From assembly GCF_901538265.1 (NCBI RefSeq), contig NZ_LR593886.1, positions 7,895,738 through 7,959,737 of the forward strand: a stretch of 64,000 nucleotides of DNA, in the 5' to 3' direction. The notes below the pieces were generated by a model. It had not been told where the DNA came from. It did no database searches and saw only the letters and a list, made by a program, of their open reading frames with translations. Shown in pieces: positions 4,461-7,129 of the stretch (positions within the stretch are counted from its first letter, which is position 1; every line of letters starts with the position of its first letter). This stretch comes from Gemmata massiliana. Its GTDB lineage: Bacteria > Planctomycetota > Planctomycetia > Gemmatales > Gemmataceae. The translations under genes and the position numbers were made by a program.

Positions 4461-4886
4461 ATGGGCCTTCTCGACACCGAACCCGGCAAGCGACGGCTCC
4501 TGTCCGTCGAGGTACCGGCCATCGAGCGCTACAACGCCGACCGAGATCCGGACTACCGCATCGCGGTAGCGCGGGTCGGTGGGGGGTTGACGCTCTCGTA
4601 TTGCCTGAAACCGTGCCACAACGTCTACCGGCTCGAAACGCGGTTGCTCTCCAGTTACCCGATCATGGCGCCCGAAACGCGGGTGATGACCCCGCTGAAG
4701 CACTGCCCGCACCTGCTCGAAGGGCAAACGATCTGTTTGTGGCGCCAGGGGTCCACGCGCGCGTCGAGCCGCTGGGACGCGAGCCAGTTCACCTGCGTGT
4801 TCGCGGTCGTCGCGGCGTGGCGCTGGCTGCTCTGCTACGAACTCTGGCACGAAACCGGCGAGTGGCCGTTGCCCGAGGCCAAGTAG
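4461..4886 (+). CDS. Prokaryotic E2-like (UBC-fold) protein
   Basis: 141 aa. The middle follows the plan of an E2 ubiquitin-conjugating fold: a YP (66-67) ... AP (70-71) turn, then HCPHL (81-85), then GQTICLW with Cys92 where the catalytic cysteine of UBC enzymes sits, then W105 and an aromatic helical tail (WRWLLCYELWHETGEWP). These features match the bacterial E2-like families found beside ThiF/E1-like proteins. Expected role: accept a modifier as a thioester from the E1-like partner. The next gene is that partner, 48 bases downstream on the same strand. No JAB-type deconjugase is present nearby. Confidence 0.65.
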   Translation: MGLLDTEPGKRRLLSVEVPAIERYNADRDPDYRIAVARVGGGLTLSYCLKPCHNVYRLETRLLSSYPIMAPETRVMTPLKHCPHLLEGQTICLWRQGSTRASSRWDASQFTCVFAVVAAWRWLLCYELWHETGEWPLPEAK

Positions 4887-4934
4887 CTCCGCGTTGAAGG
4901 TTTCGCCACAGTTCTCGGTTCCCGGCGTGAGCCC

Positions 4935-5967
4935 ATGCACCTGTTTCAAGTCGGCGCGGGCAGCGGCGGAATGGCCGTGCTCGATCTCCTCGCCCGCGAT
5001 TCGCGCATCACCCGCATCACTCTCGTCGAACCGGACGTCTACGCCCCGCACAACGTTTACCGGCACCTGTTCCCGCCCTCATCTGTCGGGCGTCTCAAAG
5101 CCGAACTCGCAGAAGAATGGGTTCGCGCGATCCGTCCCGATGTCACTTTTGACGCGCGTGTGGAAGACATCACCGATCCCACGCGGCAGGCCGAATTCGC
5201 GTGCATCGCATCCGCGTGTGACGTGGGCGTGTGCGCAGCGGACAACGAGGCCGCCAAGTTCGCGTTCGATGCGCTCATGCGCGCCGCGGGGAAGCCGTGG
5301 ACACTCGGCGAGGTACTGAGCGGCGGTATCGGCGGGTGGGTCCACCGCTTCGCGCCGGGTGCGGCGTGCTACGGGTGCGTCGCGAGCCATCTCAAGCGCG
5401 AAGTGACCGAGCAACCGAGCGGCCCGCCCCCGGACTACAGCAACCCGACCGCCGCACAACCCGAAGCGACTATCCCCGCGAGCAAGGCGAGCATCGCCGT
5501 GATCGCCGGAATGCACGCGATGGTGACTCTGGAGATGGTGGGGGAAAGGCAACCTAACCCCCCGTCCCCCCTCGCTCCTTGTGAGGGAGAACCCCCTGTG
5601 GGTTCCCCCTGCAACCCCCTCCTGCCAGGGAAGGGGGAGCAAAGGCAACCTACCCCCCCGCCCCCCCGCCCTAAAGGGAAGGGGGAGAAAGAACCCTCGG
5701 TCGACGTAGCTTCAGGCACAGAGGAATCGCGCGCCAGCTCCCCCTTCCCTTCAGGGCGGGGGGGGGGGGGTAGGTTCTTCCTCCCTGAGCATCCTCTTCT
5801 CACTTCAAGTGGTGCCGGGCGTATTCGATACCGCGTTCCGCGCGCACCGGTTGCGGATTCCGCGCGCGCCCACATGCCTGACTTGCGGGGAATCCGCTCC
5901 CGCACCGACCGGGAACCAACTCGATGCCGCACTGGACGACGCGCTGGCTCGTTTGGGCGCGCGATAA
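4935..5967 (+). pseudogene. ThiF/E1-like adenylyltransferase, reading frame broken by a repeat insertion
   Basis: The first ~200 codons are a clear ThiF/E1 Rossmann domain: GAGSGG (8-12), EPDVYAPHNVYRH (D34, N40, R43), the lysine of VGRLKAE, and CAADNEAAK near 100-107. A zinc-type CYGC follows at 145-148. After codon ~205 a 226-base repeat insert (5551-5776) shifts the frame. Removing it exactly restores an ORF that continues ILFSLQVVPGVFDTAF and gives the second zinc pair (CLTCGES), with its stop at 5965-5967. Native length would be about 268 aa. The current frame reads on to 6317 with a nonsense tail. Dropping one base from the 13-G run would reconnect the tail in frame. Confidence 0.75.
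5551..5776. repeat. Compound palindromic repeat insertion inside the E1-like gene
   Basis: It holds two related units. The second (5647-5776) is a complete palindrome-ended copy starting AACCTACCCCCCC and ending in a long G run plus TAGGTT. The first (5551-5640) starts AACCTAACCCCCC and looks like a partial copy. Both are preceded by AAAGGC. The ends and the GGGAAGGGGGAG segment match the element at 13182-13316, so this is a dispersed MITE-like family with no coding capacity. Length 226 = 3 x 75 + 1, which explains the frameshift in the host gene. Confidence 0.75.
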
Positions 5968-7129
5968 CCTGTTCCGCCGCACGCGCCCGCGCGCGGTCGC
6001 CGCGTTCGTCGGATACGAGCGTACCGGTGCCACGCGCTGGACCGCGCCCGTGCCGTGGACCGCGGACGCGGCCGTTCTCGACGTACAGTTCCGGTTCCCG
6101 TACCCCACCCGGCGCAAAACGGACTTCTCGCTCCGGCTCCCGACCGCCACGTTCCCCGCCGACGCACTCAAACCCGACGCGGACGAGCGGTTCCGCGTCT
6201 CGTTCCGGTTCCCGGTGCCGACCGGCACGGTCCACGGGGATCTGCTGTGGAACGGCCGCGTCCTCGCGACGGTCCCGATCGACGTTCTCACGCCGGACCG
6301 GTTCCTCACGAGCCTGAGCCTCACGAACGCGACCGTCGCGGTACGGTTCGGAGCCGGAACGGTCGCCGCGACCGCGTTCGTCCCCGAGCGCTGCGACGGG
6401 TTGTTGGCGACGGCCGTGTTGCGTTGCCCCACGGCCCTCGTTCCGCTCGCCGAACTCGGGCTGCGGGTCGTCTTTCACAACTCGCTCACCGGGCACGACC
6501 TCGTTGCGCCCGTCTCGTTGGGTGCGGCACAACTCGCGCGAACGGAAGCGGTAGTCACGGCCGTGTGCCCCGAAATGCCGCCCCCGATCGGGGCGTGGTG
6601 GGTGACGTGGATCGCGGGGACGCGCGCGTTAACGGCTCAGCGCGTTCACGTGTTCTCGGCGGACCGGTTCGCGGACGGCGTGCGCGTGCTCGAAACGCGG
6701 TTCGCGATCCTGGACGCAAACGGCACCGTTCGCACCTCGAAGCTCCCTCCGGCACTGACCGACGCGGCCCACGTGGGGCCGTGTTTCGTGCTGAGCGCGA
6801 GCGAACCGGGGGCGGCAGCACTGTGCAAATTCGAGGTCACAGGAGTCATCGACGGAGCGCCCGATCCCGCCACCCGGCGCGAAGCGGACACGATCGTGAC
6901 CGACGGCCCGACGGTATTTGTTCCCGCTGTGTTCGATGTGGATGAGCTTACAGGGGTGAGCGGCTTCGAGTTGCGTTTAAACGGACGGCTACTCGGCTCG
7001 GCGTCACTCCGCCCGGTCCCCGCGGCGCGACTCACGGGCGAAGGCGGCTTCATCCCGCCGCCGGAATTCGCTTGGTCTGCTGCCGCCGACCACGAACTCA
7101 TCGACCGCTTGAAGCGCCTCTCGGGGTGA
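5924..7129 (+). CDS. Uncharacterised 401-aa protein of the E2/E1-like cluster
   Basis: 401 aa, overlapping the native 3' end of the E1-like gene by 44 bases, which suggests translational coupling and a shared role. No signal peptide or membrane segment. The sequence is rich in beta-strand-like stretches (VLDVQFRFPYPTRR, DERFRVSFRFPVPTG) and appears to hold several beta-sandwich-like segments, with a short helical end (ADHELIDRLKRLSG). No family is recognised. It could be a substrate, a target-recognition factor or a structural partner of the E1/E2 pair. The start is uncertain because no later ATG is close. Confidence 0.65.
   Translation: MPHWTTRWLVWARDNLFRRTRPRAVAAFVGYERTGATRWTAPVPWTADAAVLDVQFRFPYPTRRKTDFSLRLPTATFPADALKPDADERFRVSFRFPVPTGTVHGDLLWNGRVLATVPIDVLTPDRFLTSLSLTNATVAVRFGAGTVAATAFVPERCDGLLATAVLRCPTALVPLAELGLRVVFHNSLTGHDLVAPVSLGAAQLARTEAVVTAVCPEMPPPIGAWWVTWIAGTRALTAQRVHVFSADRFADGVRVLETRFAILDANGTVRTSKLPPALTDAAHVGPCFVLSASEPGAAALCKFEVTGVIDGAPDPATRREADTIVTDGPTVFVPAVFDVDELTGVSGFELRLNGRLLGSASLRPVPAARLTGEGGFIPPPEFAWSAAADHELIDRLKRLSG

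Follow-up and report, generated by a model that had tools for sequence, protein, structure and literature searches.

Results

An E1-like gene interrupted by palindromic DNA

The window analyzed here, a stretch of 64,000 nucleotides, lies at positions 7895738-7959737 (G000:C1:7895738-7959737) of the Gemmata massiliana genome (G000), which is assembled as a single contig of 10.1 Mb. Its features of interest, all on the forward strand, are as follows:

4461-4886, forward strand: upstream ORF with a weak UBC/E2-like resemblance (PF00179, E 0.13, below cut-off)
4935-5540, forward strand: E1/ThiF-like adenylating domain with the first CxxC pair (CYGC), running to the helix ...HAMVTLEMV
5545-5646 (about), forward strand: truncated half-element (left end AAAGGCAACCTAACCCCC...) that shares its end motif with the full element
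5647-5776, forward strand: complete palindromic element bounded by AACCTAC...GTAGGTT and translated as PTPPPPRPKGKGEKEPSVDVASGTEESRASSPFPSGRGGGG
5738-5776, forward strand: 3' arm of that element, 14 bases from core to TAGGT (family, 16)
5758-5770, forward strand: tract of 13 G; in none of the other 43 element copies examined does a G run exceed 9
5782-5967, forward strand: conserved E1 tail, SLSILFSLQVVPGVFD...CLTCG...LGAR, in the +1 frame, with the second CxxC pair and a stop at 5965-5967; overlaps the next gene
5924-7129, forward strand: downstream ORF of 401 aa without a Pfam family; its first 44 nt lie within the E1 tail

The weakly E2-like ORF, the E1-like gene and the 401-aa ORF (4461-7129) may possibly form an operon. 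The central gene, with its ATG start codon at 4935, matches PF00899 (E 4e-19; 69.1 bits against a curated cut-off of 28.1), which bears out its earlier description as E1-like. Past residue 202 or so the main frame enters a palindromic stretch, and it stays open across the insert and further, stopping only near 6317. An earlier note on this DNA had reported the palindromic insert, the 13 G at 5758-5770, the absence of an in-frame stop within the insert and the tail in the +1 frame; the sequence confirms all four. Both CYGC and CLxC, the two CxxC pairs, are invariant among the intact orthologues in a seven-row alignment. Among solved structures, those of UBA5, MoeB and a SUMO E1 match nothing beyond the N part of the protein (E about 1e-7 to 1e-6), whereas that of MccB gives a weak match (E 9e-4) that covers more of it and was left unused. 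The predicted structure of an in-frame orthologue had a mean pLDDT of 49, with tail and loop at low confidence, and nothing was drawn from it about the loop: the putative loop that bears the repeat is called so here from the alignment, not from the structure model.

The same note had taken the insert as 226 bases long. The stretch is indeed foreign and palindromic, but its exact boundary (5545-5770) cannot be fixed by homology, because the loops of the repeat-free orthologues in the genus (30-96 nt) are unrelated in sequence. It is better described as a truncated half-element followed by one complete element. The best other copy of the half-element is found at G000:C1:2339963-2340046 (90%), and the complete element has full-length copies elsewhere in the genome that are 75-88% identical. 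Its inverted arms (5655-5687 and 5738-5770; 33 nt, 94% complementary) have the canonical spacing of 71, and the strand of the insert folds better than 200 of 200 dinucleotide shuffles (z -5.1). Rfam returned only eukaryotic miRNA models for the insert, far under their gathering scores, as any long hairpin gives, and a search of a plasmid collection gave no match.

A dispersed family of coding palindromes

The complete element belongs to a dispersed family whose members measure about 132 bp and have inverted arms that are almost the same. The arm pattern occurs at 63 forward and 62 reverse places in this genome (125 in total) against 0 and 0 for the reversed control, and is thus not a matter of chance. 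The 64 own-genome loci examined hold 43 paired-arm copies, a lower bound for the genome given that 40 of 121 first-look candidates were scored and that the arm-pattern places considered were the first of the 125. Of 95 family genomes, 15 have the pattern; the window's genus, with 19 genomes, accounts for 13 of these. Most copies have the outer ends ...GGTAGGTT. A search of this genome for the RAYT-type Y1_Tnp (PF01797) gave 0 matches, with the control positive in 5 of 14 genomes.

In 38 of the 43 copies the arm cores lie a distance of 2 mod 3 apart (length classes 44, 68, 71, 74, 77, 131, 134 and 173), a count that does not stand for 43 independent trials, the copies being related by descent. 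The peptide encoded by the element is nearly the same in both orientations, (E/Q)PTPPSPLPEGKGE...SPFPSGRGDGGVG, and among 20 gene-sense copies judged by eye the spacer lay one way in about 9 and the other way in 11. Visible selection on the spacer peptide was rejected: the codon-position signal in 20 spacers is almost flat (pairwise difference 0.50, 0.52 and 0.56 at positions 1, 2 and 3). Because the spacer is without clear codon-level constraint, the element peptides are regarded as tolerated rather than useful.

A divergent subgroup (L148, L149, L161, L164 and L166) has spacings that are not 2 mod 3, and none of its members is in one frame with its flanks, making it a natural non-coding comparison group. 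Two further copies, L142 and L156, look intergenic.

This genome also carries a second repeat family, with its own arm pattern at 33 forward and 33 reverse places, that encodes NPLTPFPKKEGGTEP...LSPSPFRGGVGEGLQ. It is nested in frame within first-family copies at L140 and L145, fills the E1 loop of two other genomes (G009 and G011) and is seen as well in the MnmE and GalT loops of relatives.

Most copies keep the reading frame of their host genes

The frames of the flanking DNA were judged by a codon-usage score trained on the window. For 28 of the 43 copies the two flanks share strand and best frame, and this frame is open across the element. In 19 copies coding is confident on either side: strand agrees in 18 and frame in 14 (binomial p 3.8e-4 against 1/3), with the element open in 13 of those 14. 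Regions from two other genomes, 20 each from G011 and G009, were picked from the listed arm-pattern places. The 20 places in G011, a second near-finished genome, yielded 18 copies, with spacing 2 mod 3 in all 18; the confident copies there show the same frame in 6 of 8 cases, 5 of these open. A check for long G runs over 17 loci gave a mixed picture and was not used. At L106 (G000:C1:86051-86066), a coding-like place, there is a run of 16 C/G where the best frame differs between sides, which could be another homopolymer break.

Conserved enzymes with refilled loops

Of 20 host ORFs chosen for their coding-like look and sent to Pfam, 19 matched a family. The hosts include MnmE, RarA/MgsA, a ThiL-like AIRS protein, kdotransferase (KdtA), galactose-1-phosphate uridylyltransferase (GalT), SelB, a PNKP ligase, a MobA-like transferase and a peptidase U32. 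TrmE_N, AIRS and AAA_assoc_2 were each matched as two stretches, and the printed positions fit a split at the element.

For RarA, MnmE, KdtA and GalT we find genus relatives that carry other repeats, or a short loop or no repeat, at the same place. Among the anchored relatives (the window genome and G009 excluded, and loci L182, L184, L270 and L282 dropped for want of reliable anchors), the loop is in frame in 12 of 12 for RarA, 13 of 14 for MnmE, 16 of 16 for KdtA and 15 of 15 for GalT. By eye, the MnmE loop holds the first family in G000 and G011, the second in G009 and a third in G012 and G024, and eight anchored relatives have a short loop only. Which element a given protein loop holds, if any, thus differs from species to species.

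The E1-like gene follows the same pattern. An orthologue is present in 67 of the 95 family genomes (no match at E 1e-10 in 28, incomplete genomes included). With 2 of the 67 matching genomes excluded, 41 of 65 loci were readable, the 24 lacking an anchor being left out, and 38 of the 41 run in frame to the tail, several carrying other repeats in the loop. The earlier note had named orthologues ending at about codon 205 as the outcome that would count against its reading; these loci go on in frame instead. Within the genus 16 genomes have the gene, eight of them with loops of 120-268 nt, six of these in frame. The out-of-frame loci are the window gene, G009 and L047, a fragmented assembly with no repeat.

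The short arm and the frame of the E1 copy

The frame in which the E1 gene runs into the element is that of the family, and the short 3' arm is the only family-atypical feature of this copy. Of the arm ends measured in this genome from core to end motif, 32 of 39 on the right and 29 of 35 on the left are 16 bases long; in the window copy the left end has 16 and the right end 14. Read outward, its left arm is C-G7-C-G7, as is the right arm at L004, and the family arm is normally interrupted by non-G bases. If the interrupting C went together with one G, C-G13 would result; a single two-base loss, a step suggested by the family pattern and not by reads, would thus explain both the homopolymer and the frame shift. 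No comparable G tract occurs at this site in the eight relatives compared.

A second gene in this genome is split at an element: at L012 (G000:C1 near 1936069; element about 1501-1633) the N- and C-terminal ORFs lie in different frames, and the left arm is 14 bases instead of 16, with no G run over 7, paralleling the E1 case.

The nearest relative by E1 protein among the 95 family genomes is G009 (Gemmata sp. IIL30; 95% identity). Between it and the window genome, the N part of the gene (190 codons) shows 29 differences that are synonymous and 10 that are nonsynonymous; all 4 differences in the tail (56 codons) are synonymous. The chance that four random tail changes would all be synonymous is about 0.007, on a small sample; the last 45 nt of the tail overlap the next gene, and all four changes lie outside the overlap.

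The E1 gene of G009 is also out of frame, with a stop. Five repeat-bearing loops of this draft were checked (L032, L178, L191, L251 and L268); in the four besides E1, RarA and MnmE are out of frame, KdtA is out of frame with N's, and GalT has stops and N's. Its arm lengths are a mixture, mostly 14, 15 and 16. Its genome report gives 454 Titanium as the sole platform (PMC4672568). With the draft faulty at all five loops and made with 454 only, we dropped its broken E1 gene as independent evidence of inactivation; the Gemmata sp. IIL30 record probably holds many false pseudogenes.

Discussion

Why the E1 gene looks broken

The tail of the E1 gene, with four synonymous and no nonsynonymous changes against the nearest relative, points to a break that is recent or to a base-call error. 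That the real gene is intact and in frame, its loop bearing a coding repeat as in the relatives, and that the assembly has a one- or two-base error in the homopolymer, is a serious candidate, if one to which we would give somewhat less than an even chance. The tail is fully conserved, the 13-G run is the longest among the 43 copies, and the 454-only draft of G009, faulty at five of five repeat loops examined, tells us that such errors occur at these hairpins. Against this, most other copies in the window's genome have regular 16-base arms, and the split gene at L012, with its arm of 14 and no G run over 7, points to real two-base losses.

The same L012 gene speaks for a real and recent inactivation, by slippage or deletion in a hairpin arm, that would leave a young pseudogene or a truncated E1, a possibility that we hold only tentatively. 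The frame shift is present as assembled, and the gene may be dispensable, given the 28 family genomes in which no match was found; yet neither the N part nor the tail shows any other decay, and the length of the G run speaks for a possible base-call error.

The earlier note had offered three options: recent inactivation, a base-call error, or phase variation by slipped-strand mispairing. The first two stand, with orthologues that reach the tail and a tail that is conserved; the third found no positive support. A 13-G tract within a reading frame is slippage-prone in principle, and here the tract is a simple repeat in a frame that is open right up to it, so that it could toggle the tail. Yet the eight relatives compared have no such tract at the site, the family arm is normally interrupted, and contingency genes do not typically encode adenylating enzymes; we consider phase variation improbable. 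Still less probable is that programmed frameshifting or transcriptional slippage on the G run yields a full-length protein from the out-of-frame gene: the tail is conserved though out of frame, but relatives show no conserved slippery site and their genes are simply in frame.

Mobile DNA as a possible source of loop sequence

We are fairly confident that the insert belongs to a family of short, MITE-like palindromes residing inside coding genes across the genus, and that the E1 copy was broken recently or technically. The element would have been moved by a transposase, and its insertions would survive in loops that can accommodate 40-100 extra residues, provided that the reading frame is preserved, so that copies may pile up in the loops of conserved enzymes. 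At the E1 gene, the 3' arm was presumably once C-G7-C-G7, as in its own 5' arm and the L004 copy, and a two-base deletion, or a base-call error in the consensus, would have taken away the arm interruption and the frame together. The break would be recent or technical because the E1 tail is still conserved. In-frame insertion is the ordinary, tolerated state; only the arm that is two bases short is abnormal.

Taken further, several selfish palindrome families in Gemmata may have been selected to be harmless in genes (one mod-3 class, stop-free in the frame used in either orientation, frame-keeping nesting) and may repeatedly colonize, and replace each other in, the loops of MnmE, RarA, KdtA, GalT and E1, so that loop sequence in the genus would be largely written by mobile DNA; for this broader picture we see about as much chance of being right as of being wrong. 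With dozens of copies in its conserved enzymes, and with different elements in the same loop from one species to the next, this planctomycete genus is a natural experiment in how selfish DNA turns into protein sequence and in how large a loop insertion an enzyme can bear. The hairpins are also an annotation trap through their frame breaks, as the 454 draft of G009 shows.

Comparison with known systems

The host protein shares with the ThiF/MoeB/E1 superfamily (PF00899) the N-terminal adenylation domain and two CxxC pairs, and differs in its long, variable, repeat-carrying loop ahead of the second CxxC. As for the insert, the best-known cases of in-frame coding palindromes come from Rickettsia and, in the form of intragenic REPs, from various scattered species. 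The Rickettsia palindromic elements (RPE) were reportedly described by Ogata et al. in 2000 and 2002. The review PMC10969869 presents RPE as palindromes of about 150 bp that lie in frame inside unrelated protein genes and add a tolerated extra peptide. As described there, the Gemmata family shares with RPE a short dispersed palindrome (roughly 100-150 bp), in frame and open inside unrelated genes, and differs in its lineage (Planctomycetota), in a peptide that is nearly the same both ways, in loops whose repeats differ between species and in nested copies. We have filed the family as RPE-like (coding palindromes) by description; shared ancestry is not claimed.

Intragenic REPs of the GTAG and CGTC families are, according to PMC3733652, palindromes within ORFs of many species, with different REPs at about the same recB site in two Xanthomonas species. 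REPs as presented there are 20-40 bp and mostly intergenic, whereas the Gemmata element is a 132-bp inverted pair found mostly in genes; further, in contrast to REP/RAYT systems, the window's genome has no RAYT-type Y1_Tnp. With MITEs, as outlined in PMC10969869, the element shares its short length, terminal inverted repeats, lack of its own transposase and dispersal; it differs in its strong in-gene, in-frame distribution. The empty sites found are too diverged at the DNA level to show a target-site duplication.

Our literature search on Gemmata and Planctomycetes found no description of intragenic palindromes in Gemmata, subscription papers being mostly outside its coverage. The principle of in-frame palindromes in proteins is already known; what appears to be new is the family itself, the lineage in which it occurs, its ability to code in both directions and the way in which the same loops, in several enzymes, are filled time and again.
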